Source: an uncultured Flavobacteriales bacterium (GTDB lineage Bacteria > Bacteroidota > Bacteroidia > Flavobacteriales > Flavobacteriaceae). From it: a DNA stretch of 37,769 nucleotides. The notes under the pieces are model-generated. The model saw only the letters and a program-made list of their open reading frames with translations, had not been told where the DNA came from and searched no databases. Every line of letters begins with the position of its first letter. Positions within the stretch are counted from its first letter, which is position 1. A program made the translations under genes and the position numbers. The stretch spans positions 1-37,769 of the forward strand of contig CAJWCT010000005.1 of the NCBI GenBank assembly GCA_913031385.1, read 5' to 3'. Positions 7,907 to 28,148 of this stretch are shown here, in pieces.

Positions 7907-8005
7907 TAGGAATTAATTTATAGTAAAGTAATTAATTTCAATATAATGATAGTTTTTAATTATAGTAAAATGGAAATAAATGTTTTTCTTTTTTTTGATA
8001 TATAA

Positions 8006-8032
8006 AAAAACCCAACGTTTAGTTGGGTTTTT
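8006..8032. terminator. Rho-independent terminator, probably bidirectional
   Basis: AAAAACCCAACGTTTAGTTGGGTTTTT: 8-bp stem AACCCAAC/GTTGGGTT with flanking A and T runs, downstream of the 8054..8587 minus gene. Confidence 0.85.
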
Positions 8033-8053
8033 AATATTATAAGTTGGTAATTT

Positions 8054-8587
8054 TTAGTCTTGTAGAGACATCATCATTCCAGTAGCATCAAAGTAATCTC
8101 CCACAGTAAGAATTAAACCATTTTCATCAAAATCCCAGTAATGATAAGATCTAAGAGTTACATCTTTTTGAGATTCAGTATGTGTAGCTGTCCATACCCC
8201 ATAAACTCTAACACTTCCATTTAAATTACCTAATGAATCACTTCCTGGTAACCAGTAAGTAACATTAAAATTCATGTTTTCAAATTCATCTTGATATCCT
8301 TTAATATCGCTAATAAAGCCATCTTTATCTTGCATCTCTGAACCATATCTTGGGGGTTCATGTTGTAAATCATCAGATAGCAATGCTATTTGAGATTCTA
8401 AATCTTCAACTTCATGCAGTTGCATAAATTTTTGAGCAACTTCTAAATTTGCTGCATAATTTTCATTTGTGTTGTGATCATGATCACTAGCTGCATTGTC
8501 AACATCAACTCCGTCAGCTGTGTATAAGTATGCTATGACAAAACCTACTAAAAAAGCTACTAAAGTCATTAAATTAATATTTTTCAT
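8054..8587 (-). CDS. Membrane-anchored/secreted NTF2-like (SnoaL-type) protein of unknown function
   Basis: N-terminal hydrophobic segment; LEVAQKFMQLHEVEDLESQIALLSDD...VRVYGVWTATHTESQKDVTLRSYHYWDFDENGLI resembles the NTF2 fold. Confidence 0.6.
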   Translation of the reverse strand: MKNINLMTLVAFLVGFVIAYLYTADGVDVDNAASDHDHNTNENYAANLEVAQKFMQLHEVEDLESQIALLSDDLQHEPPRYGSEMQDKDGFISDIKGYQDEFENMNFNVTYWLPGSDSLGNLNGSVRVYGVWTATHTESQKDVTLRSYHYWDFDENGLILTVGDYFDATGMMMSLQD

Positions 8588-8738
8588 TGTAAATAAATTT
8601 ATAGTTTTAAAAAATTAAAGCTCAAGATTAACTATAAATCGTTAATATTTTGTTCTTTAAGAATATTATTTTTCAAATTTTAGTTATTTAATAGAGACCA
8701 TAAATTAATAATCTTAAAAAATTTATTATATTCATTAT

Positions 8739-10277
8739 ATGGTAAAGAGATTATTTATTTTTCTTGTTACTTCTACATTTTTTTTCTCATGTGAGATGTT
8801 TATTCCTGATTTTTCTAAAGAAAATCCAAATGTTATTTTGTTTTTTGTTGATGATTTAGGATATGGAGAATTAGGAGTTTATGGACAGAGAATAATTCAG
8901 ACAAGAAATATTGATGCTTTAGCAAATAATGGAGTGCTATTTACTCAATTTTATTCAGGATCACCTGTTTGTGCTCCGTCTAGAAGTGTTCTATTAACAG
9001 GAATGCATTCGGGTCATACTTACATAAGGGGTAATCATGAATGGGGTGAAAGGGGTGATGTGTGGAGTTATGAAAAGATGTCTGAAGATTCTAATTTAGA
9101 GGGTCAATATCCTATTAAAAAAAGTACTATAACTTTAAGTAAAGTGCTATCAGAAGGTGGATATAAGACTGGTATGGTTGGGAAATGGGGTCTTGGTGGA
9201 CCAAACTCAACTTCTGTACCAACTACTATGGGATTTGATTATTTTTATGGTTACAACTGTCAGAGAATAGCACATAATCTATATCCTCCCCATTTGTGGG
9301 AAAATGAAAATAAAGTACTCTTGGATAACGAATTAGTGTCACCTAGAACAAAACTGGATGAAGGTGCTGACCCATATGATGATAGTAGTTATGATTTATT
9401 TTTTCAAAATGATTATGCCCCAGATCTTATGCATCAGAAGGCATTAGAATTTATAAATGAGAATAAAAATGATCCTTTTTTTCTTTACTATGCGTCTCCA
9501 TTACCTCACGCTCCTCTACAAGTTCCTAAGCCACTAATAGAAAAGTATAAAAATTTAATTGGAAAAGAAGAACCATACCTTGGAGATAATGGCTACTTCC
9601 CTCATAGAAATCCAAAAGCTGCTTATGCTGCTATGATTGAATACATTGACATTCAGGTTGGTGAAATCATTCAGAAATTAAAGGATGAGGGGATATATGA
9701 GAATACAATAATTATGTTTACAAGCGATAATGGTCCAACTTATGCTGGTGGTGTTGATGCTAATTATTTTAATAGTACTGGAATTTTTCAAAATGATAAA
9801 AGTAGAATGAAAGGGTATACTTATGAGGGTGGTATAAGGGTACCATTTATTGTCTCATGGCCAGAAAAAATAAAAAATAATAGAGTAGAAAATGAGATTT
9901 CTGCTAGTTATGATTTGTTTCCTACTATATGTGATATGATTAAAATTCCTTATCCTAAGACCCTTGATGGAATCAGCTTAAAATCGACAATATTAAATGA
10001 AGGAAATCAAAATCATCATGAATATTTATATTGGGAATTTCCTGCATATAATGGTCAACAGGCCATAAGATTAGGGAAATGGAAGGCAATTAGAAATAAT
10101 ATTTTTAAAGGAAATAAGTCCATTGAATTGTATGATTTAGAAAAGGATTTAAAAGAGACTAATGATTTAGCAGACTCTAATCCAACTATTATTAAGAAAG
10201 TTGAAGAAATATTTCTTAAAGAACATGTTAAGTCAGAGATAGATAGATTTAGGCTTGGTTATATTGATGAAGAATAA
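8739..10277 (+). CDS. Sulfatase (type I, formylglycine-dependent; arylsulfatase family), lipoprotein
   Basis: NVILFFVDDLGYGELGVYGQ and CAPSRSVLLTGMHSGH (C-x-P-S-R; Cys codon at 8970..8972); lipobox TFFFSCEM. Confidence 0.96.
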   Translation: MVKRLFIFLVTSTFFFSCEMFIPDFSKENPNVILFFVDDLGYGELGVYGQRIIQTRNIDALANNGVLFTQFYSGSPVCAPSRSVLLTGMHSGHTYIRGNHEWGERGDVWSYEKMSEDSNLEGQYPIKKSTITLSKVLSEGGYKTGMVGKWGLGGPNSTSVPTTMGFDYFYGYNCQRIAHNLYPPHLWENENKVLLDNELVSPRTKLDEGADPYDDSSYDLFFQNDYAPDLMHQKALEFINENKNDPFFLYYASPLPHAPLQVPKPLIEKYKNLIGKEEPYLGDNGYFPHRNPKAAYAAMIEYIDIQVGEIIQKLKDEGIYENTIIMFTSDNGPTYAGGVDANYFNSTGIFQNDKSRMKGYTYEGGIRVPFIVSWPEKIKNNRVENEISASYDLFPTICDMIKIPYPKTLDGISLKSTILNEGNQNHHEYLYWEFPAYNGQQAIRLGKWKAIRNNIFKGNKSIELYDLEKDLKETNDLADSNPTIIKKVEEIFLKEHVKSEIDRFRLGYIDEE

Positions 10278-11039
10278 ATGAATATTTTTTTTACATACAT
10301 TTTTGCAATTGTATTATCTTTTTTTTTACCTAAGAATAATGAATGGGAATATCTATTTAATGGTAAGAACTTAGATGGATGGAAAATAAAAATACGAGGT
10401 CATAAATTAGGTGACAATTTTAATAATACTTTTAAGGTGAAAGATGGAACGTTGAAGGTTTCATATGAAAATTATGATTCTTTTGACGATAAGTTTGGTC
10501 ATATTTTTTTTACAAATAAAAAATACAAAAATTATCATTTAAGTCTAGAATACAAGTTCAGTGGCAATCATTTAAAGGGTGCTCCAGGATGGTCAATAAA
10601 GAATAGTGGAGTAATGCTTCACTGTCAAGATCCTGAAACTATGTTAATTGAACAAGATTTTCCGGTTAGTGCAGAAACTCAATTATTGGGAGGATTAGGA
10701 AAAAATAAAAGAACTACTGCTAATATTTGCACGCCTGGAACAGATGTTGATATTAATTCAAAGAAGGCAAAAGCTCATTGTATTAATTCAACTTCAAAAA
10801 CTTATCATGAAGATGACTGGGTTAAAATTGAAGTGATAGTTTATTCTGACTCATTAATTCATCATGTTATCGATAATGATACAGTTTTAACTTATACAAA
10901 TATTAGGGTAGGAGGAGATGAAGTTCCAAGTAACTATATAAATAAAATAGGTAATCCTTTAAAGGAAGGCTATATTTCATTACAATCTGAAGGTCATCCT
11001 GTAGAATTTAGGAACATAAAAATTAAGACAAATGAATAA
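10278..11039 (+). CDS. DUF1080 (3-keto-disaccharide hydrolase-like/LamG-like) protein
   Basis: EWEYLFNGKNLDGWKIKIRG...GWSIKNSGVMLHCQDPETM...GHPVEFRNIKIK typical of DUF1080; starts immediately after the sulfatase stop. Confidence 0.87.
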   Translation: MNIFFTYIFAIVLSFFLPKNNEWEYLFNGKNLDGWKIKIRGHKLGDNFNNTFKVKDGTLKVSYENYDSFDDKFGHIFFTNKKYKNYHLSLEYKFSGNHLKGAPGWSIKNSGVMLHCQDPETMLIEQDFPVSAETQLLGGLGKNKRTTANICTPGTDVDINSKKAKAHCINSTSKTYHEDDWVKIEVIVYSDSLIHHVIDNDTVLTYTNIRVGGDEVPSNYINKIGNPLKEGYISLQSEGHPVEFRNIKIKTNE

Positions 11040-12159
11040 TTCAATTGTTTTTTTTCTAGTAATATTAATTTCTATTTTTTCATGTAAATCAGTTAGTGAT
11101 GACTCACATATTAGAAGCAATCATCAGTGTATGCCAACACCTTTAGAAAGATTTTCTCATTCAGACAGTGTAGTGAATGGAACTCAAAATTCTCAAGAAG
11201 GAATGGTTTTTATCCAGGGTGGAAGTTTTGAAATGGGATCAGATGGTAACATTAAAGCTGATGGTGAGAAAGGTTACGTTGGAAGTGATGAATTTCCTAA
11301 GCATCAAGTTGAAATAAATTCTTTTTGGATGGATGCGACGGAAGTAACCAATATTCAATTTAAAGCTTTTGTTGACGCTACAGGTTATGTTACTACAGCG
11401 GAAATTGCTCCTGATTGGGAAGAAATTAAAAAATCATTACCACCAGGTACACCAAGACCACCTGATAGCGTATTAGCTCCTGCTTCCTTGGTTTTTATTC
11501 AAACAGATGGTCCCGTTTTACTTCAAGATTATTCTCAATGGTGGAGATGGACAATAGGAGCTAATTGGAGACATCCATTTGGACCTGGAAGTAATATTGA
11601 AGGAAAAGATAATTATCCTGTTGTACATATAAGTTGGGATGATGCTCAATCTTATTGTAAATGGGCAGGAAAACGTTTGCCTACTGAGGCAGAGTGGGAA
11701 TATGCCTCTAGAGGAGGTCAAATAAATCAAATTTATAGTTGGGGAAATGAACATATTAATAAAGGGATTTCTAAGGCAAATAGTTGGGAAGGTGATTTTC
11801 CTTATAATAATGAACTTAATGATGGGTATTTATATACAGCTCCAGTAAAATCATATCTCCCAAATGCTTATGGTCTTTATGATATGGCTGGAAATGTTTG
11901 GGAATGGTGTCAAGATTGGTACCATATAGATTATTATAAAATGATTGCAAATGAAATTTCTAATAACCCAGATGGACCAAATGTAAGTTATGATCCTGAC
12001 GAACCTTATATAAAAAAGAGAGTTATGAAAGGGGGGAGTTTTATGTGTAATGATTCTTATTGTAGTGGTTATAGAAATTCAATGAGAATGAAAAGTAGTC
12101 CTGATACAGGATCTTTACATACAGGATTTAGAACTGTTATGGATGCAGTAAGTCCTTAA
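11032..12159 (+). CDS. Formylglycine-generating enzyme (SUMF1/FGE family), lipoprotein
   Basis: MVFIQGGSFEMGSDG, FWMDATEVTN, RLPTEAEWEYASRGG, NVWEWCQDWY, and KGGSFMCNDSYCSGYRNSMRM with the two Cys spaced as in catalytic FGEs; lipobox ISIFSCKS; 8-bp overlap with the DUF1080 gene. Confidence 0.93.
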   Translation: MNNSIVFFLVILISIFSCKSVSDDSHIRSNHQCMPTPLERFSHSDSVVNGTQNSQEGMVFIQGGSFEMGSDGNIKADGEKGYVGSDEFPKHQVEINSFWMDATEVTNIQFKAFVDATGYVTTAEIAPDWEEIKKSLPPGTPRPPDSVLAPASLVFIQTDGPVLLQDYSQWWRWTIGANWRHPFGPGSNIEGKDNYPVVHISWDDAQSYCKWAGKRLPTEAEWEYASRGGQINQIYSWGNEHINKGISKANSWEGDFPYNNELNDGYLYTAPVKSYLPNAYGLYDMAGNVWEWCQDWYHIDYYKMIANEISNNPDGPNVSYDPDEPYIKKRVMKGGSFMCNDSYCSGYRNSMRMKSSPDTGSLHTGFRTVMDAVSP

Positions 12160-12210
12160 TTTTAACAACATTAGGATTAATATTATTATTAATTCTTAAC
12201 TTTAGTAGAT

Positions 12211-13941
12211 ATGGAGAGAAATATTTCAAACATAGGTTTTTTAGTAGTTTTAGTATTTACTATATACATCTGGTTGTTTGTTGGAGAAACAGATAATTCT
12301 TATGAAATTATTAAGCCTGTAAACTATGATTTAGTGATAAAAAATGGTTTAGTTTATGATGGTTCTGGTCAAAAACCTTTTATTGGAGACGTCGCAATTA
12401 AAAATGATAAGATAGAATATGTTGGAGAATCAAAATATTTAGTTTCTAAAAATATAATTTTTGCAAATCAAAAAGCTGTATCTCCTGGTTTTATTAATAT
12501 GCTTAGCTGGGCAGTAGATGATATAATAATTGATGGAAGATCTCAGGGTGATATTAGGCAAGGGGTTACTTTAGAGGTTTTTGGTGAAGGTGTTTCAATG
12601 GGTCCTTTAAACGTTGAAATGCAAAAAAATAGAGAAGCAAATGGTCTTGGTGTTGGAGATGTTGACTATGAGCTAACTTGGGTAACTTTAGGAGAATACC
12701 TACAATTTTTAGAAGATAAAGGTGTTTCAACAAATGTTGCATCTTTTGTTGGAGCGACAACTTTAAGAGTACATCAGATTGGATATGATGATAGGCCACC
12801 TACGGAAATGGAATTAGATTCTATGAAAATGTTGGTGAGGCAGGCAATGGAAGAAGGAGCACTAGGAATCGGATCATCTCTGATATATGCTCCAGCATTT
12901 TATGCTGCAACGGATGAATTGATTGAGCTTTGTAAAGTTGCCTCTGAATACGGAGGTATGTATATTTCTCATATTCGAAGTGAGGGAAATAGATTTCTTG
13001 AAAGTGTTGACGAATTAATAAGAATTTCTTCTGAAGCTAATATAGATGCTGAAATTTATCATTTAAAAGCTGGTGGAAAAGATAATCACTATAAATTAGA
13101 TATGGTTATTGATAAGGTTGATTCTGCTAGGTTAGCAGGTTTAAATATTACTGCTGATATGTATACATATACTGCAGGTGCAACTGGTTTAGATGCTTCA
13201 ATGCCACCATGGGTACAAGAAGGTGGTTATTCAGAGTGGAAGAGAAGACTTCAAGATCCTGATATTAGAGAAAGAGTAATTAATGAAATTAATACCCCAA
13301 CAGATGAATGGGAAAATTTATACTTGCAAGCTGGTTCAGCTAAAAATATAATTTTAATTGGTTTTGCTAATCCTGATTTAAGATATTTAACAGGAAAAAC
13401 GCTATATGAAGCATCTCAAATTTTAAATAAAGATCCAGTTGAGACTATGATGGATTTAGTTATTGAAGATGGAAGTAGGGTTGGAACTGTTTATTTTATT
13501 ATGTCAGAAGAAAATATAAAGAAAAAAATTGCTTTACCATGGATGAGATTTGGTTCTGATGCAGGCTCGATGACTCCTGAAGGTAAATTTTTAGAATCTA
13601 ACACACATCCAAGAGCATATGGAAATTTTGCTAGGCTATTGGGTAAATATGTTAGAGACGAAGGAATAATTTCCCTTGAAGAAGCAATAAAAAAATTAAC
13701 ATCAAATCCTGCAAAAACTTTAAAAATAAAAGGCAGAGGAATGCTTAAAAAAGGGTATTATGCTGATGTAGTAATATTTGATCAAAACGCAATACAAGAT
13801 TATGCAACTTTTAATCAACCTCACCAGTTTAGCACTGGGGTCAATCATGTAGTTGTAAACGGAGAGCAGGTTTTTAAATATGGTAATCATACTGGCGCTA
13901 CTCCAGGTAGGTTTGTGAAGGGACCTGGGTATAAGGATTAA
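12211..13941 (+). CDS. D-aminoacylase-like amidohydrolase (N-acyl-D-amino-acid deacylase family), atypical metal site
   Basis: DLVIKNGLVYDGSGQKPFIGDVAIKNDKIEYVG, YISHIRSEGNRFLESVDE, EIYHLKAGG, FGSDAGSMTPEG, SNPAKTLKIKGRGMLKKGYYADVVIFD; N-terminal membrane segment. Confidence 0.85.
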   Translation: MERNISNIGFLVVLVFTIYIWLFVGETDNSYEIIKPVNYDLVIKNGLVYDGSGQKPFIGDVAIKNDKIEYVGESKYLVSKNIIFANQKAVSPGFINMLSWAVDDIIIDGRSQGDIRQGVTLEVFGEGVSMGPLNVEMQKNREANGLGVGDVDYELTWVTLGEYLQFLEDKGVSTNVASFVGATTLRVHQIGYDDRPPTEMELDSMKMLVRQAMEEGALGIGSSLIYAPAFYAATDELIELCKVASEYGGMYISHIRSEGNRFLESVDELIRISSEANIDAEIYHLKAGGKDNHYKLDMVIDKVDSARLAGLNITADMYTYTAGATGLDASMPPWVQEGGYSEWKRRLQDPDIRERVINEINTPTDEWENLYLQAGSAKNIILIGFANPDLRYLTGKTLYEASQILNKDPVETMMDLVIEDGSRVGTVYFIMSEENIKKKIALPWMRFGSDAGSMTPEGKFLESNTHPRAYGNFARLLGKYVRDEGIISLEEAIKKLTSNPAKTLKIKGRGMLKKGYYADVVIFDQNAIQDYATFNQPHQFSTGVNHVVVNGEQVFKYGNHTGATPGRFVKGPGYKD

Positions 13942-13949
13942 TTTTAATT

Positions 13950-15032
13950 ATGCTAAGTAATAGTTGGTTTAAAAAGTATTTACTTCCAGGATTTATTTTT
14001 CAATCTTTAGTAATTGGGGGTGGTTATGGTACAGGAAGAGAACTTGTAGAGTTTTTTCTATTATTGGGACCAAAGAATGGAATTTTAGGCATGATTGTTT
14101 CCACGATTATTTGGTGTGTTGTTTTAGCTTGTACATTTGAATTATCGCGTCAATTTAGATCTTATGACTATAGATCTTTTTTAATAAAAATTTTAGGTAG
14201 AGGATGGATCTTCTATGAAATAACGTATTTAATTGGTCTAGTTTTAGTGATATCTGTTTTAGGTTCAGCGTCAGGAAACTTAGTTATGGAAGTTTTAGAT
14301 CTACCAACAATTGTAGGTACAATAGCTATGATATTGATGGTTGGGGTACTATCTTTTTTTGGTAGTAGAATCATAGAAGCTTTTTTATCTTACTGGTCAA
14401 TTTTTCTTTATCTAGTATTTATAATATTAGTTATTTGGATTAACTCAATATATGGAAATCAAATATCAAATAATTTTTCTCTAACTGAAGAATCTGCTCC
14501 TTGGTTAAAAAATGGTATAATGTATGCAGCTTATAATGTAGGGCCTGTTGCAGCTATTTTGTTTTGCTTAACAAGTATAAAAACAAGAAAAGAAGCTCTT
14601 ATATCAGGTGGTTTAGCAGGTATTATAGCTATAATTCCTGGTTTTATGATATTTTATAGTTTGGTAAGTTTTTATCCTAATATTAATCAAGAAACTATTC
14701 CTATTAATTTTTTATTAGATAAAATTGGATCAAATTCTTTTAAATTTATTTTTCAATTAATTCTCTTTGGTACTTTTATTGAAACGGGAGTTGGTTTAAT
14801 ACATGGGTTTAATGAGAGAATTTCTAATTGGTTAAAGAGTGATAGGGGTCAAGAATTGTCTAGAATTAGTCGTTTTATTATTAGTATTTTACTTTTAGTA
14901 ATATCCATTTTTATTGCTGAAAAGTTTGGGTTGGTAGATTTAATTAAAAATGGATATGGTACACTTACTTGGGCTTATTGGATTGTCTTTGTTATTCCAG
15001 TCTTATTTGTTGCTTTTAAAAAGATGTTCTGA
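13950..15032 (+). CDS. YkvI-like multispanning membrane protein (putative transporter)
   Basis: About 9-10 hydrophobic segments; LPGFIFQSLVIGGGYGTGRELVEFFLLLGPKNGILGM resembles the YkvI family; 8 nt after the amidohydrolase. Confidence 0.75.
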   Translation: MLSNSWFKKYLLPGFIFQSLVIGGGYGTGRELVEFFLLLGPKNGILGMIVSTIIWCVVLACTFELSRQFRSYDYRSFLIKILGRGWIFYEITYLIGLVLVISVLGSASGNLVMEVLDLPTIVGTIAMILMVGVLSFFGSRIIEAFLSYWSIFLYLVFIILVIWINSIYGNQISNNFSLTEESAPWLKNGIMYAAYNVGPVAAILFCLTSIKTRKEALISGGLAGIIAIIPGFMIFYSLVSFYPNINQETIPINFLLDKIGSNSFKFIFQLILFGTFIETGVGLIHGFNERISNWLKSDRGQELSRISRFIISILLLVISIFIAEKFGLVDLIKNGYGTLTWAYWIVFVIPVLFVAFKKMF

Positions 15033-15048
15033 AAAATAAATTTGCAGA

Positions 15049-15399
15049 ATGAAGGAAAAATATATTTTGTCAGTTTTATTATTTTTTTTGTTGGTATTAT
15101 CATGTCAGAAATCAGATGTAGAAAAAGATGTACCAAAATGCATTAATGATATGATTGATAACATTCAAAAAGAAGAAGTAAGAAATCCTCCTGCAAAAGT
15201 TTGGAAATGGGAAGTTGATGGTAGTACTTATTATTATATAACTTCTGATTGCTGTGATCAGTATAATTATTTATATGATGAGAATTGTAATGTAATATGT
15301 GCGCCAGATGGTGGATTTACAGGAAATGGTGATGGTAATTGTCCAGTTTTTATTGAACAAATAATAAGAACGTTAATTTGGGAAGATAGTAGGGATTAA
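15049..15399 (+). CDS. Small DUF6970-like lipoprotein
   Basis: Lipobox LLVLSCQK; VWKWEVDGSTYYYITSDCCDQYNYLYDENCNVICAPDGGFTGNGDGNCPVF. Confidence 0.65.
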   Translation: MKEKYILSVLLFFLLVLSCQKSDVEKDVPKCINDMIDNIQKEEVRNPPAKVWKWEVDGSTYYYITSDCCDQYNYLYDENCNVICAPDGGFTGNGDGNCPVFIEQIIRTLIWEDSRD

Positions 15400-15404
15400 T
15401 TATT

Positions 15405-16226
15405 CTATGGAAATAATGATGTAATCGTTGCTTTATCTGGAATGCTAAGGATTGTTTCTACATAGTCTTTATAGAGTTTATGTCCAAGTGGTAGTTGAGA
15501 TTCAATTTCAGTAGGAGTTCCGATGATAAATTCTTCATTTCCTGATATATCTTCTCTTTTTTTACCTGCAGTAATATAATAATCCCACTCCGCAAGAATT
15601 AACCAGTAAGCATATTCTTGAGTTATAACCTTATAATACATCTCTATATCTTCTTTTTTTATTTCTTCATATGAAGAAATATCATAAATGCCTTGATCTA
15701 TTGCTTCTTGTGTTGCTAAAGATAAAGCAGAAGTGGAATTCATATAATCCCAATCTTCTATATATGCTAGATATAATATTACATTAGTAATGGTATGCAA
15801 AAGATGTTCTATCACTTCACCAATTTGAGACTTTCCTCCCTCTTGCATTTCCCATATATAATCCGTTACATTATCTTGATAAGGAGCTGGAGGAGATCCA
15901 TATGCATAGTTTTCATTATTTTCAAAAGAAGCTTCTACGCCAACACGTTGATAGACATACTTATTTTTTGAAGTAGATAAATATTTTGAACGCATATCTT
16001 GATCAATCATAGGATTGTCAGCGAACATCTCTTCATAAGCTTTGCCTACATTATTTAAAAAATCAGAGCTTACATCTTCCTTAGCGAAAATTCTTAAATC
16101 ATATGCATCTATATAGTTTGTAAATTGAATGTTTTCTAAATCTGAATGTTTATCACAAGCTGATAAAATCAGGAATGAAAAAAGCAAAGAAATAAATACT
16201 ATTTTTTTAATAAAAAACTTTTTCAT
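15405..16226 (-). CDS. Hypothetical lipoprotein
   Basis: 273-aa ORF, lipobox LFSFLILSACDK; no family recognised. Confidence 0.7.
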   Translation of the reverse strand: MKKFFIKKIVFISLLFSFLILSACDKHSDLENIQFTNYIDAYDLRIFAKEDVSSDFLNNVGKAYEEMFADNPMIDQDMRSKYLSTSKNKYVYQRVGVEASFENNENYAYGSPPAPYQDNVTDYIWEMQEGGKSQIGEVIEHLLHTITNVILYLAYIEDWDYMNSTSALSLATQEAIDQGIYDISSYEEIKKEDIEMYYKVITQEYAYWLILAEWDYYITAGKKREDISGNEEFIIGTPTEIESQLPLGHKLYKDYVETILSIPDKATITSLFP

Positions 16227-16230
16227 ATTT

Positions 16231-16283
16231 TAAATCTACCAACTACAAATAAAAATTCAAAAGTGGTATGGTTTTTTTAATTC
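16231..16283. repeat. Intergenic repeat copy A (divergent)
   Basis: TAAATCTACCAACTACAAATAAAAATTCAAAAGTGG...TTTTTTTAATTC; fills the gap between genes at 16226 and 16277; matches copies B, C and E. Confidence 0.6.
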
Positions 16284-16888
16284 TTAATACCCATAAAAAC
16301 ATTTACTCCTTTTGGGATTGGATTTCCTGAGGTTCTTCTAAAACTAATGACCTGCCCCACGTGTGTAAGCGCATCAGCAATTGGACCATTTAACAAATAA
16401 AAAAAAGAATAAGAATTCTCAGTTTTACCACTTTTAAATGTAATTTGAAGATCAGCAATATCTTCATCTTTTAAGTTATTAAGAATTTTTACTGTTTTTT
16501 CTAAATTAAGTAGGGTTTCTGTACGTAAATATGAAAATTCTAAAATTGAATAATCTTCTCCATAAATTTTTGGCTTTTGAGCGAATGTAGTATATATAGT
16601 TTGTGATAAACTGTATATGTGTTCTAGAGTTTCCCTTGATGACATTCCTTTTTCAGAAGGTCTATAATTCAAGTCTTTTTCTTTTAAATCATATGTTCCC
16701 CAATAATATCTAAATCCTAAACCTTGAATAACTCTTTTTGCAACGGAACTAGCCTTATAAGATTCCTCAAATTTTGGCAGTTTACTAAATGGTAGATGTT
16801 CTATATCTTGACTCATAGTTTTTTCAATTGGTATTAAAATAACTAATATAAAACTTATTTTTTTTAAAAAATAAAGTAATTTTTTCAT
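16277..16888 (-). CDS. DinB-like superfamily protein, exported
   Basis: N-terminal signal-like segment; SSRETLEHIYSLSQTIYT...DALTHVGQVISFRRTSGNPIPKGVNVFMG resembles DinB/YfiT-like four-helix proteins. Confidence 0.65.
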   Translation of the reverse strand: MKKLLYFLKKISFILVILIPIEKTMSQDIEHLPFSKLPKFEESYKASSVAKRVIQGLGFRYYWGTYDLKEKDLNYRPSEKGMSSRETLEHIYSLSQTIYTTFAQKPKIYGEDYSILEFSYLRTETLLNLEKTVKILNNLKDEDIADLQITFKSGKTENSYSFFYLLNGPIADALTHVGQVISFRRTSGNPIPKGVNVFMGIKN

Positions 16889-16911
16889 AATCTTAACAGT
16901 TTAGTTGAAAT

Positions 16912-16960
16912 GGCAATTTACAATCAACAAATCAAAATTCAAAAGGGGGAGTTTAATTTC
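16912..16960. repeat. Intergenic repeat copy B
   Basis: GGCAATTTACAATCAACAAATCAAAATTCAAAAGGGGGAGTTTAATTTC; near-identical core to copy E. Confidence 0.75.
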
Positions 16961-17162
16961 TAGATTTTATAAAAGGAATTAAAAATTCTATAATAAATAT
17001 TAAGAATAACCATATAATTAAGCCTGCCAAATATCCATCCTCATCAGAAATTTTTGTAAACTTATCAAAAAACATTGATGTTAATACCATTCCAGTCCAT
17101 AGTATAAAATAGAAGAAAATTTTTCTTAAAATATTTTTTATTTTATCAAAAGTTAAAATCAT
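16953..17162 (-). CDS. Small two-TM membrane protein (paralog of 17164..17385)
   Basis: 69 aa; hydrophobic; ends IIEFLIPFIKSRN, paralogous to KEYLIPIIKSK of the neighbouring ORF. Confidence 0.6.
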   Translation of the reverse strand: MILTFDKIKNILRKIFFYFILWTGMVLTSMFFDKFTKISDEDGYLAGLIIWLFLIFIIEFLIPFIKSRN

Positions 17163-17163
17163 T

Positions 17164-17385
17164 TTATTTTGATTTTATTATTGGAATCAAATATTCTTTT
17201 GTAAAAACTATTAGGCATGTAAGTCCAAGACTTGGTAAATAACCAATATCATTAGTCTCATTCCAATATTTATCTAATACTGTTGATAACAGTAGAATTA
17301 ATCCAAAAAGAACAGCATAAAATAAAAATTTTTTTATACCAACTAGTAATAGTGTTAATAGACCTATAATTAAGTGTAAGTTCAC
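17164..17385 (-). CDS. Small membrane protein (paralog of 16953..17162)
   Basis: 73 aa, GTG start; KFLFYAVLFGLILLLSTVLDKYWNETNDIGYLPSL aligns with KIFFYFILWTGMVLTSMFFDKFTKISDEDGYLAGL. Confidence 0.6.
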   Translation of the reverse strand: MNLHLIIGLLTLLLVGIKKFLFYAVLFGLILLLSTVLDKYWNETNDIGYLPSLGLTCLIVFTKEYLIPIIKSK

Positions 17386-17405
17386 CTTAGTAAGATATTA
17401 ACATT

Positions 17406-18665
17406 TTAATTGAAGTTAAAAATTAAGGGAAAAAGAAACGTTACAAATAATGACCATAAGTAATAAATGGACATAAAAACTACTATTGAGATGCCAACTT
17501 TCATGGGTTTCGAATCATACATTAAGGTATAATATAATTTAGATGATACAACAATTAAATTAGTTAGAATTAAAATATTACTTCCTAATACAGCAGTTCT
17601 ATTTGGTGTAATTCCCCACTCCATAATTCTAATTAATATTGCTGATAATGCTATTCCATTAACTAGTATTGTAACTAATGACAACATAAAAAGTATGCTT
17701 ATCTCTATCTTGCTCATTGTAGTTGATAAGCCCTCAGTAATTGAAAAAAATATTAATGCCATTACTCCAATTAGTACTATGTTAAAAAGTAAAAGAAATT
17801 CTCTGTTATTATAGATATTGCTTCCAAAAAAAATTATTGATCCTATATAAATGGATAGAGTAATTAAAACTATTGGACTAAATAATTTTGCAATAAAAGG
17901 AGATATTTTATCCACTATGTTAGGGTTTTTATTTATAATATGAGTCCCAATTATAGGTAATGAAGCAAGACCAGTTATTACTATATATCTAAAATAAAAT
18001 TCTTCAATATCAATGTTTATAAGTTCAAATAATCCAACTGTTATTCCTGAAAATATACCTCCACCAAGTAAAATAAGGCCTGATATAACAACTAAGTCAC
18101 CGTTGTATTTTATGAAACTCAAACGCTCCTTATGACTGGTTATATTTTTGCCAAAAAATAATAAACTAAATGTTGTCCATAAAAAAACTGGCAAGTGTAA
18201 ACATGCTAAAATTAAAGTATCACTTTCTTTATTTAGAGGATGATTTGGAAGAAAGTTTATATATAAAATTGATGAAAAAATAACAATTGAAATAATGAGT
18301 ATTTTTTTAATTTTAGTCCTCTTTTTCCATATAAAATAAATTGCTAGAGGAGAAAAAACTATGAAACTAATATTTCTAGTATAAAAAAACTCTTCGTCTA
18401 TAGAAAATATTTCAGGAAGATTTGCAATGATTACTGCAAACAATGAGCACAAAAATATTACCATTAATTCTTTCCTGCTACCAATAGAAAAACCTGAATT
18501 AGTATAATTTAATCTTGCTTTCCAGTAGCTGTAAATTTTTTTGTCTTTGATCTTAGAAGACAGAGAAAAAAATTCACTTTTGAAGGCTAATTTATTGGAT
18601 TGATAAATTTTTTCTAATTTATCTGGATTATTTAAGTTTTTTAATATAATTTTTTTCAAATCCAA
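17406..18665 (-). CDS. DUF4153-like multispanning membrane protein
   Basis: 419 aa, many TM segments; layout and motifs resemble DUF4153 proteins. Confidence 0.65.
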   Translation of the reverse strand: MDLKKIILKNLNNPDKLEKIYQSNKLAFKSEFFSLSSKIKDKKIYSYWKARLNYTNSGFSIGSRKELMVIFLCSLFAVIIANLPEIFSIDEEFFYTRNISFIVFSPLAIYFIWKKRTKIKKILIISIVIFSSILYINFLPNHPLNKESDTLILACLHLPVFLWTTFSLLFFGKNITSHKERLSFIKYNGDLVVISGLILLGGGIFSGITVGLFELINIDIEEFYFRYIVITGLASLPIIGTHIINKNPNIVDKISPFIAKLFSPIVLITLSIYIGSIIFFGSNIYNNREFLLLFNIVLIGVMALIFFSITEGLSTTMSKIEISILFMLSLVTILVNGIALSAILIRIMEWGITPNRTAVLGSNILILTNLIVVSSKLYYTLMYDSKPMKVGISIVVFMSIYYLWSLFVTFLFPLIFNFN

Positions 18666-18698
18666 AAGTTAAATTCGAATTATGCTATGTTAGGGTTT

Positions 18699-18745
18699 CT
18701 AATCTACCAACAACAAATCAGAATTTAATAGAGAAGTTTAATTAG
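18699..18745. repeat. Intergenic repeat copy C
   Basis: CTAATCTACCAACAACAAATCAGAATTTAATAGAGAAGTTTAATTAG; terminal inverted CTAAT/ATTAG. Confidence 0.7.
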
Positions 18746-18755
18746 TAATGGCTAT

Positions 18756-18800
18756 TTAACCTTAATTAACAAATCAAAATTAAAATGAGATTTTAATTAG
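18756..18800. repeat. Intergenic repeat copy D (tandem to C)
   Basis: TTAACCTTAATTAACAAATCAAAATTAAAATGAGATTTTAATTAG; 10 bp from copy C. Confidence 0.6.
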
Positions 18801-19618
18801 TAAGATAGATGTAATTTGAATTTGATATTTTTATTTGAATCGTTATTGTCAATAATAACAATTCCTTGTTGATATAAGTCAATGCTGTAGTTTACATCAT
18901 TATCATTTTTAATTATATTCCATGCTTTTATCATTCCTTTACTCCAATTAATATCATCAAAAATAAAAACAGAAGAGTTAGATATCTTTTTTTTCAATAG
19001 ATTAAAATAATCTAATGTTGATTGTTTATTGTGATTTCCATCAACAAAAATAAAATCAAATAAGTGATTTTCTTTTAATAGAATCGGAAAAGTATAATCA
19101 TAAAGTCCTTGTTTAATTTCATACTTATTATTATCTACAATTGATGAAAATTGTTTTGAAGAAATTTTACAAAGTTCAGGTATTCCTTCCATGGTAATAA
19201 ATTTTCCTGCAGTTTGATTTTTAAGAGCTTTTAGAATATAAGTCCCAGATATACCTAAATTAGTTCCTATTTCAAGAACAGAAGAAGAATTTAAATTTTT
19301 TATAATAAAGTAAAGTAGTTGACAAAATTTAATTTTTGAAGCTCCTTTTTTACAAATATTTTTAACCATTTCTTTCCTGTTAATTCCAAAAATTTCATAG
19401 GAAATCAAAGTTTCATTTTTTAATGAGGACTGTCTGTACTCCTCACATTCTTTAAAAGAGTTAATTTCATCAATATTAAAATTAGAATATTTGACCTTAT
19501 TATAGGCTTTTAAAATTTTATGAAGAGAGTTATTGTTATATTCACTAATTCTCTTTATCTCTTTGTTTTGATTAAATATTCTAAATAGAATTTTACAATG
19601 TTTAATTAATTTATTCAA
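18797..19618 (-). CDS. Class I SAM-dependent methyltransferase (Methyltransf_24-like)
   Basis: SSVLEIGTNLGISGTYILKAL (motif I), FDFIFVDGNHNKQSTLDYFNLL. Confidence 0.82.
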   Translation of the reverse strand: MNKLIKHCKILFRIFNQNKEIKRISEYNNNSLHKILKAYNKVKYSNFNIDEINSFKECEEYRQSSLKNETLISYEIFGINRKEMVKNICKKGASKIKFCQLLYFIIKNLNSSSVLEIGTNLGISGTYILKALKNQTAGKFITMEGIPELCKISSKQFSSIVDNNKYEIKQGLYDYTFPILLKENHLFDFIFVDGNHNKQSTLDYFNLLKKKISNSSVFIFDDINWSKGMIKAWNIIKNDNDVNYSIDLYQQGIVIIDNNDSNKNIKFKLHLSY

Positions 19619-19623
19619 AACTA

Positions 19624-19938
19624 TTAGTTTATGTAATAATCATTTAATAGAATTGAAAACATCATCTTGTAAGTTTTATACCATTTTTTACCTTTTGCTT
19701 TTGCTTTTTTATGAAGAGTGTTGTTTTTCCATTTTTCAATAGAATTTTTATCTCTCCAATACGATATAAATATATTTTTCTTTCCGTCACCAAACAGTTC
19801 AGAACCTAAAAAACCATCAATTTTTTTTACTTCATTAATTGTTAACTTATCCATTTCTTCATATCCATCAAGGTTAGATGATTTTTCATAAACAAATGTA
19901 GCTAGTGTTGAACCTGAAGGTATTAGTATTTCTTTCAT
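19624..19938 (-). CDS. Antibiotic biosynthesis monooxygenase (ABM)-like/dimeric ferredoxin-like small protein
   Basis: 104 aa; EVKKIDGFLGSELFGDGKKNIFISYWRDKNSIEKWKNNTLHKKAKAKGKKWY resembles ABM-fold proteins. Confidence 0.65.
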   Translation of the reverse strand: MKEILIPSGSTLATFVYEKSSNLDGYEEMDKLTINEVKKIDGFLGSELFGDGKKNIFISYWRDKNSIEKWKNNTLHKKAKAKGKKWYKTYKMMFSILLNDYYIN

Positions 19939-19942
19939 CTTT

Positions 19943-19990
19943 CTAATCTACCCATAACAAATCAAAGTTCAAAAGGGGGAGTTTAATTAG
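19943..19990. repeat. Intergenic repeat copy E
   Basis: CTAATCTACCCATAACAAATCAAAGTTCAAAAGGGGGAGTTTAATTAG; terminal inverted CTAAT/ATTAG; shares TTCAAAAGGGGGAGTTTAATT with copy B. Confidence 0.75.
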
Positions 19991-20051
19991 TGGGTTTTTG
20001 TTTATTATTTAAATAAATGTAAACAAAACCTGACATTTTAATAAATTTGTC

Positions 20052-22447: not shown

Positions 22448-24142
22448 TTAGTTTCTACTTTTTTTCATGTTAAAAGTTTTTGAGCCAACTCTTGACATAG
22501 CACATCTAAATCCTATAAAATCTGTTGCTTGATCTTGTGGATAAAATCTTCTTTGAGCAGGATCCAACCAATACGCTCTATCTTTCCATGAACCTCCTTT
22601 ATAAACTCTTGCCTGATCGTTTATAAGAGTTGTTTTATTTTCAGAAGGATCATAATCAAATTCTGGAGTATTTGGATTCGCATCTTCATAGCTTGGAGAT
22701 TTATACATCCCCCTAGTTTCTTCATCTGAACCAGAAGCTCTTTCAAGTTTTCTGTTTTCTGGATCATAATTTCTTGAAGACAGGAAATCACCATCTCTAA
22801 AGTTCACATTATATCCTTGGTTAAACTGTGTTCTATATCTAGTATCCAATTCTGTTAGATCTTCTACTGCAATTTCTCCAGGTAGTCTAGTAGCTACTCT
22901 TTTACCATTACTTAGAGTTTTATATTCTATCTCATCAGCTCCAACAACTACTGCTTTACCATCAGGACCAATTGAGAACTTTTTATAATCATTTCCTCTG
23001 AAATAATTGAAATCATTAAACTCATCATCAACTATTGGTCGATATACATCTGCCACCCATTCAGCAACATTTCCTGCCATATCATATAGTCCAAATCCAT
23101 TAGGTTGATACGATCTTACTTGATTAGTAATATCTGCTCCATCATCAGACCATCCTGCTATACCACCGTAATCACCATCACTATTTTTAAAGTTTGCCAA
23201 TTGATCACCTAAATTCTTTCTTTGTCCTGTTCTTGTATATTGACCTTGCCATGGATATTTTTTTCTTCCCCTATAGATATTAAAATCACGAACTTCACTA
23301 AGAGCTAAGGCTGCATATTCCCACTCAGACTCTGTAGGTAGTCTAAATTTTGGAGAAATAAATCCAGTTTCTCTAGAAGCAGAGCTAGGAGCTAAAGAAT
23401 CAGGTCCTTTACTACGTTTACCTCTTAAAACATTTGTATTTCCTCCGTATGTTGAATTTGGAACAAGTATGTAAGTATCTGTACTAAAAGTACTAGTTGA
23501 AGAAACACTATCAATTTTTGATCCTTTTGTTATATACCCTTCTCTTTCTAAAATTAACTCTTGGTATCTGTCTGATCTCCACTCTGCAAACTCATAAGCT
23601 TGAATCCAACTTACCCCTACAACAGGATAATCCCCAAATGCAGGATGACGTAAGTAATTATTTACCATATCTTCACTGTATCCAAGTTTATTTCTCCAAA
23701 CAAGTGTATCAGGGAGAGCATTGTAATAAATTGCACTGAAATTTTCATCCTCAGGAGGATAATTTCTTTTTAGCCAATCAAGATATTCTAGGTACATCAT
23801 GTTAGTTACCTCAGTTTCATCCATATAGAATGACATAACATGTTGTTGATTTGGGGTATTATTCCAATCCCTCATAGGATCATCTTGAACTCTACCCTTT
23901 GTATAGGTCCCACCTTCGATAAGAACCATGTTTGGAGGAGTATCTTGACCTTTGTAGTTGGTATTGTACTTAAATCCACCTTTCTTAGAGTTTATTGCCC
24001 AACCTGTAGCAGATGATAAATTCTTGTTTTTAGATGTAGTAGACTTATTACAGCTAGTAAAATATACGCATAGGACTAGTGTTAGCAATAGGTTAAATAT
24101 TTTTCTAAAATTACTTTTCATATTCAAATTATTTTTTAACAA
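22448..24142 (-). CDS. gldJ: Gliding motility lipoprotein GldJ (SUMF1-fold, non-catalytic)
   Basis: Lipoprotein (CVYFTSCNKS) with MVLIEGGTYTKGRVQDDPMRDWNNTPNQQHVMSFYMDETEVTN, NVAEWVADVYRP, YKGGSWKDRAYWLDPAQRRFYPQD; lies between murF and porU. Likely start at internal Met, 24121. Confidence 0.93.
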   Translation of the reverse strand: MLKNNLNMKSNFRKIFNLLLTLVLCVYFTSCNKSTTSKNKNLSSATGWAINSKKGGFKYNTNYKGQDTPPNMVLIEGGTYTKGRVQDDPMRDWNNTPNQQHVMSFYMDETEVTNMMYLEYLDWLKRNYPPEDENFSAIYYNALPDTLVWRNKLGYSEDMVNNYLRHPAFGDYPVVGVSWIQAYEFAEWRSDRYQELILEREGYITKGSKIDSVSSTSTFSTDTYILVPNSTYGGNTNVLRGKRSKGPDSLAPSSASRETGFISPKFRLPTESEWEYAALALSEVRDFNIYRGRKKYPWQGQYTRTGQRKNLGDQLANFKNSDGDYGGIAGWSDDGADITNQVRSYQPNGFGLYDMAGNVAEWVADVYRPIVDDEFNDFNYFRGNDYKKFSIGPDGKAVVVGADEIEYKTLSNGKRVATRLPGEIAVEDLTELDTRYRTQFNQGYNVNFRDGDFLSSRNYDPENRKLERASGSDEETRGMYKSPSYEDANPNTPEFDYDPSENKTTLINDQARVYKGGSWKDRAYWLDPAQRRFYPQDQATDFIGFRCAMSRVGSKTFNMKKSRN

Positions 24143-24277
24143 CGTTTCTAAGAAACAAAAAGTGTCGCAATATACTAATTTTTAATCAGATATCAATTAT
24201 TCAAAATTAATTACATTCCACTATAAATAAACGTTAAATTCATTTTTTTATTATCAACTTAGATTTTTTAAATAATA

Positions 24278-27200
24278 TTGTTGATCATTAGACGTTTCTC
24301 AGATATGAGATATTTTCTGCTTTTTTTATTTATTGCAATCTCTTCTATTGGTTTTTCACAATCCAAAGAAATAAATATAAATTGGGATGGTTATAGAGTT
24401 TTTTCAACATCTTCTGCTCAGTTTGAAATACCTTATTTTAATAATCACAATTTTAATTTTACACCTACTAAGGGTATATCATTATCTGCCCAGTGGAATG
24501 AAACTATCGAAATTGATCAGAATTCAATTGTTATAGAGAACGTTACTTTATCTGATATAACGACAGAAAATTTAAAACAGTTAGATAGAAATATAATTCC
24601 TAAGGAGGTGACTTATGATATTAGAACTTCAATTTCGAGAGGAAAAATTTATCTTTTTCTAGAATTATTTCCAATAATTAATCAAAATGGAAATTTTAAA
24701 AAAGTAAATTCTTTTAGATTTTCTTATAAAAAGGGTATAAGTAACAAGTTAAAAAGACAAAGAATTCAAAATTCTGTTCTGAATACTGGTGAGTGGTATA
24801 GGTTCTATGTAGATAAATCAGGAATTTTTAGGTTGAATAGAAGTTTTCTAAGCCAATTAGGAATAAATACAAACAATGTAGATCCTCGAGACATTAAAAT
24901 ATTTGGTAATGGGGGTAATATGTTACCATTAAGCAATTCAGTGGAATATCCAATAGATCCAATTGAGAATGCAATAAAAGTACATGGTGAAGACGATGGT
25001 GTTTTTAATAATAGTGATTATATTTTATTTTATGCCCAGGGACCTAATGCATACAATTCTGATAGTAATACAAATTTGAATTTATACTCAGATAAAACAG
25101 CATATTTTATAAACATTTCTTCATCTCCTGGAAAGAGAATTATTGAAAATGTGCAACCCGTAAATACTGCTAACACTATAGTAGACTCATATACAGCATA
25201 TAAATATCATGAATTAGATGAATATAATATTGGAAAAATTGGAAGAAGGTGGTTTGGAGATAGATTTGATTTTGAATCAAATCAAACATTTGAATTTATC
25301 TTTCCCAATCTAAGAACATCCGAACCAATAAATCTTAGAGTATATACTGCTGCAGTTTCTGAAATTTCTACTTCTATGTCAGTTGAGATAAATAATCAAG
25401 AAGTCTCTAATTTAAATTATTCATCAATTAATGATCCTATTCTTGTCTCAGGCGACTATTATACGGGAGAAATAATGGTTTCAAATTCTAATATATCTGT
25501 CAACTTAAACTATAATAATAATGGAAATCCAAGTTCTGTTGCATATTTAGACTATATATCCTTAGAAGGTACTTGCGATCTTAATTATAATGGAGATCAA
25601 TTTATTTTTTACAACAAAAATGTAGTTGACCTCTCAGGTATTGCACAATACAATATTACAAACGCAAATTCTATTTCTAATATTTGGGAAATTACAGATT
25701 TAAACAATGTGTCTGAAATATTCATTGATGGTAGTGAGAGTACAGTTAGTTTTAAGGCATTATTAGGTGAAGAAAAAAGATATATTGCTTTTAATCAGGA
25801 ATCGTTTTATGAACCTACAATAGAAGGAGAAACAAATGTTGAAAATCAGGATTTAAAATTTGACGTTTTTTTAGATGATCAAAATCAATTTCAGGATTTA
25901 GACTATTTAATTATTTGTAGGTCAGATATGTTATATGAAGCTGAACGTCTTGCACAGATAAATAGGGACTTTAATAACCTAAATGTAAAGGTAGTAACAT
26001 TAGAAAAAATATATAATGAATTTAGTTCTGGAAACCAGGATATTGCAGCCATAAGAAATTTTGTAAAATATATTTATTTTAATGCAAGTGATGAAGTTCA
26101 ACGAATTAAGTATTTATGTCTTTTTGGTGATGCTTCCTTTGATTATAAAGACAGGATTTCTCAAAATACAAATATAGTCCCATCATGGCATTCACTAAAT
26201 AGTTATAGCTTGGCAAGTGCATATGTTTCAGATGATTTTTTTGGTATGATGGACGATAATGAGGGAATGATGGAAAATTCAGATAAGTTAGACATAGCAG
26301 TAGGAAGAATTTTAGCAGACTCTCCTCAAAGGGCTACTGACTTGGTTGATAAAATAAGTGATTATTACAATGCAAACTCATATGGAGATTGGAGAAATAA
26401 ATTAATTGTTATCTCTGATGATGTAGATGAACCATGGGAAAGTATAATTCAAGGAACTTCAAATAGTCTAGCAGATTTAATTTCTGATAACAAACCTTTT
26501 TTTAATGTTAAAAAAATATTATCAGATGCATATGTGCAAGAATCAAGTTCTGGAGGAGAGAGATATCCAGAGGTTAACAAGGCAATTATAGATGGTATAG
26601 AATTGGGAGCATTGGCAGTTAATTATTTTGGTCATGGAGGTGAAGATGGAATTGCAAGAGAAAGAATATTTGATAAAATAGATGCAACTGAGTTATCGAA
26701 TGAAAATAAATTAAATTGTTTTGTTTCGGTAACATGTGAGTTTACAAAATTTGACAACCCTGGAAGAAATACAGCTGGTGAGTTCCTGTACTGGAATAAA
26801 AATGGAGGAGCAATAGCTCTTATAACAACTACAAGGCAAATATTTGTTAGTGTTGGAGTTAATTTTAATCTAACCCTAGAGAATTACCTATTTTCGTTGA
26901 ATTCTGACAACTATCATACGATGGCTGAGGCATTAAGATTAACAAAAAATGATCCATCAATTTCTGGTTCTGATCAAAGAAGATTGGTATTTTTTATAGG
27001 AGATCCTGCAATGAAATTGGCAATACCTAAGCCGAATATTAGAATAACTGAAATTAATGATATTCTAATTAATGAATTTACGGAACCATTACAAGGATTG
27101 AGTTCTGTAAAAATTGAAGGCCAGATTGATGATGAATTTGGCAATAAAATTGATGACTACCAGGGAGAATTAGTTACTACGGTATTTGATAAGAATATTG

Positions 27201-28135
27201 AGAGATCTACTCTTGGAAATGATGGTACATCTCAGAATGACTCTCCAATAATATTGGATTTTACTACATTAGGTGAAGTACTGTTTAGAGGAAGATCATC
27301 TATTGAAAATGGAGATTTTAGTGTCAATTTCATAGTCCCAAGAGATGTTGTAATGGAAGTTGGTAATGGAAAAATTAGTTTTTATTCAAAAAGTAATTCG
27401 AGTTTAATGGACCAAAATGGATCTAATTTGGATATTTTAATAGGAGGAATTAATGAAAATGCAGCTGAAGATAATATTGGTCCTGAAATTGAATTATTTA
27501 TGAATGATGAGGCTTTTATTAGTGGAGGAATAACTAATGAAAACCCCCATCTTTTGGTCAAATTATTTGATGAAAATGGCATTAATACTTCCAGTGGTAT
27601 AGGTCATGATATTGTAGCAGTTTTAGATGATGATGTTGCAAATTCATTTAGATTGAATGATTATTATGAGGCAAATTTAGATGATTATCAAAACGGAACG
27701 ATAAATTATCCATTGAGAGATATTTCTCCTGGCTTGCATACCTTAAGTTTAAAGGCTTGGGATGTGTATAATAATTCATCAACTTCTGAAATACAGTTTG
27801 TAGTCCATGATCAAGACCAGGAATTAGTCATTTCTAATGTTTTAAATTACCCTAATCCCTTTATTAATTTTACTGAATTTTGGTTTAATCACAATAGTTC
27901 TAGTGATTTAAGCGTTAGTATACAGATATTTACTATTTCAGGAAAACTTGTAAAAACAATTAATGGATATGCAAACACCTCAAATAGTTCTTCTTTATCT
28001 AGGGATTTATCCTGGGATGCAAGAGATGATTTTGGCGATAAAGTTGCAAAAGGTGTTTATATATATAGGTTGACTGTTAGATCTGATCAAATTGGCAAAC
28101 AGACTTCAAAAACTGAAAAACTTGTAATACTGTAA
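24278..28135 (+). CDS. porU: Type IX secretion system sortase PorU (peptidase C25 family)
   Basis: LCLFGDASFDYKDR, LDIAVGRILADSP, AVNYFGHGGEDG (His), CFVSVTCEFTKFDNP (Cys), C-terminal T9SS-type domain NVLNYPNPFINFTEFWFNH...GVYIYRLTVRS. More plausible ATG start at 24305 (MRYFLLFLFIAISSIGFSQ). Confidence 0.95.
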   Translation: MLIIRRFSDMRYFLLFLFIAISSIGFSQSKEININWDGYRVFSTSSAQFEIPYFNNHNFNFTPTKGISLSAQWNETIEIDQNSIVIENVTLSDITTENLKQLDRNIIPKEVTYDIRTSISRGKIYLFLELFPIINQNGNFKKVNSFRFSYKKGISNKLKRQRIQNSVLNTGEWYRFYVDKSGIFRLNRSFLSQLGINTNNVDPRDIKIFGNGGNMLPLSNSVEYPIDPIENAIKVHGEDDGVFNNSDYILFYAQGPNAYNSDSNTNLNLYSDKTAYFINISSSPGKRIIENVQPVNTANTIVDSYTAYKYHELDEYNIGKIGRRWFGDRFDFESNQTFEFIFPNLRTSEPINLRVYTAAVSEISTSMSVEINNQEVSNLNYSSINDPILVSGDYYTGEIMVSNSNISVNLNYNNNGNPSSVAYLDYISLEGTCDLNYNGDQFIFYNKNVVDLSGIAQYNITNANSISNIWEITDLNNVSEIFIDGSESTVSFKALLGEEKRYIAFNQESFYEPTIEGETNVENQDLKFDVFLDDQNQFQDLDYLIICRSDMLYEAERLAQINRDFNNLNVKVVTLEKIYNEFSSGNQDIAAIRNFVKYIYFNASDEVQRIKYLCLFGDASFDYKDRISQNTNIVPSWHSLNSYSLASAYVSDDFFGMMDDNEGMMENSDKLDIAVGRILADSPQRATDLVDKISDYYNANSYGDWRNKLIVISDDVDEPWESIIQGTSNSLADLISDNKPFFNVKKILSDAYVQESSSGGERYPEVNKAIIDGIELGALAVNYFGHGGEDGIARERIFDKIDATELSNENKLNCFVSVTCEFTKFDNPGRNTAGEFLYWNKNGGAIALITTTRQIFVSVGVNFNLTLENYLFSLNSDNYHTMAEALRLTKNDPSISGSDQRRLVFFIGDPAMKLAIPKPNIRITEINDILINEFTEPLQGLSSVKIEGQIDDEFGNKIDDYQGELVTTVFDKNIERSTLGNDGTSQNDSPIILDFTTLGEVLFRGRSSIENGDFSVNFIVPRDVVMEVGNGKISFYSKSNSSLMDQNGSNLDILIGGINENAAEDNIGPEIELFMNDEAFISGGITNENPHLLVKLFDENGINTSSGIGHDIVAVLDDDVANSFRLNDYYEANLDDYQNGTINYPLRDISPGLHTLSLKAWDVYNNSSTSEIQFVVHDQDQELVISNVLNYPNPFINFTEFWFNHNSSSDLSVSIQIFTISGKLVKTINGYANTSNSSSLSRDLSWDARDDFGDKVAKGVYIYRLTVRSDQIGKQTSKTEKLVIL

Positions 28136-28148
28136 TATTAAATTATAT

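Follow-up and report, generated by a model that had tools for sequence, protein, structure and literature searches.

The stretch of DNA analysed here, referred to as the window (37,769 nucleotides of contig CAJWCT010000005.1, from an uncultured bacterium of the family Flavobacteriaceae), contains a run of minus-strand genes whose junctions are occupied by copies of a short repeat. This repeat is probably the recombination site of a cassette system of Flavobacteriaceae that is integron-like without being an integron. The reading draws, at the level of sequence, on the repeats themselves, on gene units gained, lost and reordered with boundaries inside the repeat, on a recombinase gene whose 3' end is itself repeated, and on loci in which two kinds of site are mixed or fused. 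The source genome of the window (G000) is a metagenome-assembled genome (MAG) of 1.2 Mb, 72% complete.

The repeat was searched for with an nhmmer profile built from 40 copies that lie on other contigs or in other genomes, from which the window locus and its orthologue had been left out; the chance level was set by 200 first-order Markov random windows, the best of which reached 13.8 bits. Measured against this value, three of the five copies proposed in the initial annotation are far beyond chance: copy A (16230-16278; 18.6 bits, E 5e-5), copy B (16913-16968; 28.0 bits, E 5e-8) and copy E (19941-19998; 22.0 bits, E 4e-6). The repeat is real, given that these three are recovered by a model trained on other loci only. 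Copy C (18697-18752), between the methyltransferase gene and a 419-aa gene, is weak (6.7 bits, E 0.25) and ranks after them, and its left 24 nt closely match copies A and E. All the copies are on the minus strand; A, B, C and E are present as had been described, in one sense and at junctions of minus-strand genes, whereas D (18756-18799; 1.9 bits, not significant) is marginal and at most a degenerate trace.

Copy A adjoins the start codon of a gene coding for a 273-aa lipoprotein-like protein and extends to the stop of a 203-aa gene; it has an orthologous copy at locus L103 (9552-9601). Copy B lies between the 69-aa and the 203-aa genes, and the stop codon of the former falls inside it, in line with the earlier remark that one end of the repeat supplies or abuts the stop codon of the flanking gene. 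Copy E, the rightmost one, is located upstream of a gene for an ABM-like monooxygenase and shares with copy C the CTAAT/ATTAG inverted ends that had been ascribed to both. A profile search of the whole window gave no other convincing copy, as had also been reported, and Rfam gave no match for the repeat. Synteny of the window with two other genomes (G001 and G005) ends at 20008-20016, about 10-18 bp past copy E. Taken as an empty-site test, this comparison yields no clean empty site, because the right flank alone is syntenic and the left neighbour differs. An ScdA-like iron-sulfur repair gene was observed at this same place in G005, and between recombinase-end sites (described below) in contig C25 of G001.

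Outside the window, copies in G000 were found on two contigs only, C53 (8 copies) and C79 (2 copies), which makes about 15 in total with those of the window. The C53 array is denser, its copies standing mostly between open reading frames (ORFs) of 55-140 aa, and on each of the two contigs the copies keep one sense, including those next to genes that run the opposite way. A relative, G802, carries about 40 copies, mostly upstream of small accessory ORFs. One of its loci (L051, JAPYTU010000008.1) was reached by pattern search and belongs to a record titled Cytophagales. A transfer across classes was considered on account of this title and ruled out, since G802 is collinear with window 7991-16824 over 8.8 kb at 95% identity; the Cytophagales label is probably wrong, and this identity makes G802 a near relative that can be used for strain comparison. 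Candidate copies in G667 and G724 turned out to be matches at chance level.

The orthologous locus of G802 (L095) lacks the methyltransferase gene together with copies C and D, has, between the 419-aa and 73-aa genes, an additional gene of 263 aa accompanied by a repeat of its own, and keeps copy E and the ABM-like gene. Besides, neighbouring units of C53 (98-aa, 55-aa and 27-aa genes) sit on three different contigs in G802. Gene order is not fixed, which speaks for the cassette idea put forward in the initial annotation, and the repeat, which moves together with gene units, is not an ordinary dispersed one. These alignments show that close relatives differ by gain, loss and reordering of units of gene plus repeat, and that the unit boundaries fall inside the repeat. 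In pairs of sites with a common downstream gene, identity starts at about TA|ACCCC, and in pairs with a common upstream gene it stops just past TTTTGAATTTT. From these limits, exchange can be placed in a core about 25 bp long; conservation of that core in the two partners prevents a finer placing of the crossover. The right half of the repeat, which is variable, moves together with the gene at whose start codon it lies. In several copies (L009:6635-6685, L093, L089 and L091), short modules (TATTTCTAAGGACTA and GATTGATTAATTAATAAC) separate the TA|ACCCC core from the gene end; they are possible terminators or scars.

A family of tyrosine recombinases, named here P0001, is tied to arrays of this kind in sister genomes; it is the sort of enzyme that the initial annotation had proposed to look for near other copies. 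P0001 itself, from contig C5 of G001, is a 347-aa protein of PF00589 with the tail ...LKEEDMPMV*. The DNA of its 3' end (AAAAGAAGAAGATATGCCTATGGTTTAG) recurs downstream in G001 as a series of sites, one of them identical at 31 of 31 nt, and the start codons of opposite-strand genes adjoin several of these recombinase-end sites. In the genus G550, an intact recombinase is present, its 3' end occurs three more times, and the genes read toward the recombinase. Genes separated by copies of the recombinase 3' end, an attI-like layout next to the recombinase gene, were thus observed in G001 and G550, in sister genomes and not in the window. A four-gene block (thioredoxin-like, ApbE-like, a lipoprotein of about 70 aa and a protein of about 490 aa) was also seen beside recombinase-end sites in two genera (L105:2850-5983 and L136:4841-7973).

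The P0001 family is present in 13 of the 301 Flavobacteriaceae genomes surveyed, distributed over 12 genera, and among 378 genomes of the phylum it was found in two of the same class and in none outside it. Six aligned members (from 42% identity up) conserve R207, K235, R298, H321 and Y330, catalytic residues assigned by their position within known tyrosine-recombinase motifs. They also conserve the tail L-E-x-D-M-P, immediately after which the sequences diverge. In several genomes the reading frame of the recombinase continues past this tail into unrelated sequence, as would be expected of a gene end acting as a junction. All the PF00589 proteins of G000, G001, G472 and G802 were listed and IntI is absent among them: with TIGR02249, whose cut-off is 265, P0001 reaches 18.5 bits, and the remaining proteins were judged by inspection to be XerC/XerD-like or unrelated recombinases. 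Viral, phage and plasmid collections contained no close relative of P0001 and no true copy of the repeat or of the array.

The window-type and recombinase-type sites are fused or adjacent at four loci, namely L055 (G472), L098, L097 and L089 (G802). At L055, the second recombinase-end copy, which matches the first as far as GATATRCCTA, runs straight into a window-type repeat. The arm TACAATTTACAATWAT, common to both types of site, was found 6 times against 0.4 expected, and its distance to the start codon that follows is fixed. Of 213 ORFs, 14 have a TARATTG-type motif at 22 nt or less from an ATG, and 9-10 of these 14 are at sites of either type. Read in gene sense, both types have the boundary TA|A(A/C)CC. 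None of the recombinases found has a 3' end of the window type. The step on which the reading mainly depends is that a P0001-type recombinase would also act on the window-type site, as the common arm and boundary suggest.

In the mechanism proposed, a cassette would consist of one or few genes plus a site directly upstream of the start codon. The P0001-family recombinase (347 aa, ...LEIxxLKEEDMPMV*) would join sites within a short core that lies, in gene sense, near TA|A(A/C)CC, and the 3' end of its own gene would be the primary (attI-like) site. With cassettes inserted at this primary site, copies of the gene end would be left behind along the array; the genes of the inserted cassettes would read toward the recombinase, with the site at the far side, just upstream of the start codon, so that the topology would be that of an integron with the genes turned round. 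Since no upstream promoter could serve genes so oriented, the site itself may carry one, and its right arm TTTTG-N19-TAGATTG, which ends about 5-7 nt before the ATG, probably doubles as cassette promoter. Both this promoter role and the exact crossover base are predictions made from the nucleotide sequence. The assembly shows no recombinase for the window array, which may be a remnant or may be served in trans from elsewhere.

The structure of the site is also the starting point of the main rival explanation, in which the genes of a regulon would share the repeat as their promoter and activator box (box ACCCCACTCCCC, -33 TTTTG, 19-bp spacer, -7 TAGATTG and leaderless start) and no recombination would take place. 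The sequence TTTTG-N19-TAGATTG is near but not equal to the promoter consensus of Bacteroidota (-33 TTTG, -7 TAnnTTTG). Its spacer is exactly 19 nt in 41 of 58 copies, among the 36 copies with an ATG-started ORF there are 21 whose ATG comes 6-7 nt after the fixed end of the site, and several larger single genes bear the repeat, all of which agrees with a regulon. Nevertheless, some 15 of the 57 copies are not followed by an ORF start; they are located at gene ends or beside opposite-strand genes. The S41-peptidase orthologues of G003 and G004 are without the repeat seen in G001 and G002 (the upstream gene differs too), and the acylase orthologue of G001 is without the core. A promoter of this kind would not account for units gained and reordered with boundaries in the repeat, nor for the recombinase 3' end intermixed in the same arrays. 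It is considered unlikely.

Less likely again is ordinary homologous recombination between dispersed repeats, which would shuffle the accessory genes with no dedicated recombinase. The assemblies of G000 and G802 contain no P0001-family recombinase, as this explanation would have it, but the arrays of sister genomes do include the recombinase and copies of its 3' end, with the same site arm. Junction B bears on the question as well: in its orthologue (L095:3070-3126, versus window 16913-16968) both flanking genes are kept and about 20 nt of the repeat middle are swapped for another repeat type, a change that resembles gene conversion. However, the identity common to two sites is often of just 25-47 bp or so, which speaks against homologous recombination.

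Core-box and folding tests were applied to 51 sites. RYYYAAC...GTTRRRY boxes were found in 0 of 51, and there is no attC-like hairpin, the mean folding z being about +0.55 on both strands. The statement in the initial annotation that the repeat has no canonical core sites thus holds, and so does its own doubt about a canonical integron, in view of the lack of IntI, core boxes and fold; the attC-like folding that it proposed to check is absent. A dispersed element of the repetitive extragenic palindromic (REP) or miniature inverted-repeat transposable element (MITE) type, lying between genes by chance, is very improbable: the copies are many, short and intergenic, but they do not fold on either strand, they have a fixed placement before start codons and a constant sense within C53, and gene and repeat move as one unit. 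A canonical integron array without integrase, that is, a cluster of attC sites lacking integron-integrases (CALIN), can practically be dismissed in spite of the array layout, the small hypothetical genes and the constant site sense, because the sites have neither the boxes nor the fold, the linked recombinase is not IntI and the site is 5' of its gene.

The cassette system also has to face several observations that weigh against it. Apart from the arm, the core of the window-type site (CCCCACTCCCCTTTTGAATTTT) is different from the recombinase 3' end, and the genomes without P0001-family recombinase, G000 and G802, are the richest in copies. The fixed spacing to the ATG fits a plain promoter too, some larger single genes bear the repeat outside arrays, and the change at junction B, with the genes kept and the repeat middle different, is unexplained by a single crossover point. 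Finally, the order of the arrays is incomplete because MAG contigs break at repeats or within arrays.

Regarding known systems, the cassette system proposed here would resemble integrons in several respects: a primary site goes with a gene for a tyrosine recombinase, small accessory genes stand in tandem and each has its site, the polarity of the sites does not change, units are gained, lost and reordered, and some arrays have no recombinase. On the other hand, the recombinase is not IntI, the sites have neither R boxes nor hairpin and stand 5' of their gene, the primary site would be the 3' end of the recombinase gene, and the genes read toward the recombinase. The arrays with no recombinase nearby recall CALIN, but their sites are not attC. 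The recombinase-associated acquired interbacterial defence (rAID) of gut Bacteroidales (PMC12247911) is alike in having a predicted tyrosine recombinase, an array of short genes and a conserved intergenic motif. However, the genes of rAID lie downstream of the recombinase in a common orientation and code for orphan immunity proteins, whereas those of G001 and G550 read toward it. Moreover, PADLOC gave no defence family match among 10 cassette proteins, the coverage of type VI secretion system (T6SS) immunity models by its library not being established, and the 378 genomes of the phylum gave no P0001 relative outside the class. No description of this cassette system was found in the openly licensed literature, although it may be published elsewhere.

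The genes of the window array are all on the minus strand. The 273-aa lipoprotein-like gene (15405-16226), downstream of copy A, is present only in G000 and G802 out of seven genomes, and Pfam gave no match for its protein. The 203-aa gene (16277-16888), downstream of copy B, and the 69-aa, 73-aa and 419-aa membrane-protein genes (16953-18665), between copies C and B, are without Pfam match too, which leaves the earlier labels 'DinB-like' (203 aa) and 'DUF4153' (419 aa) without backing. The methyltransferase label, by contrast, agrees with PF13578 (18797-19618; 1e-12), and that of the ABM-like small monooxygenase (19624-19938), downstream of copy E, is borderline (PF03992, 22.9 bits versus a cut-off of 23.1). 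Beyond the array, the region 22448-29408 codes for proteins that resemble type IX secretion/gliding components: GldJ-like (22448-24142), PorU-like (24278-28135) and PorV-like (28149-29408).

Integrons are very rare in Bacteroidota, with one complete integron in Bacteroidetes proper, that of Salinibacter (IntegronFinder 2.0, PMC9024848). Despite this rarity, Bacteroidota exchange accessory genes, and a separate cassette system, if true, would explain part of it. Such a system would be invisible to searches based on attC and IntI, and it would mean that cassette arrays had more than one origin among tyrosine recombinases. The candidate site and enzyme are open to experiment. The formation of rAID arrays is an area of active research (PMC12247911), and the cassette system may help to explain how they form. 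In a wider sense, it is quite possible, if somewhat short of probable, that Bacteroidota have a cassette capture independent of integrons, in which the end of the recombinase gene would be the primary site and each site would be a promoter, so that cassettes could be expressed in any position of the array.

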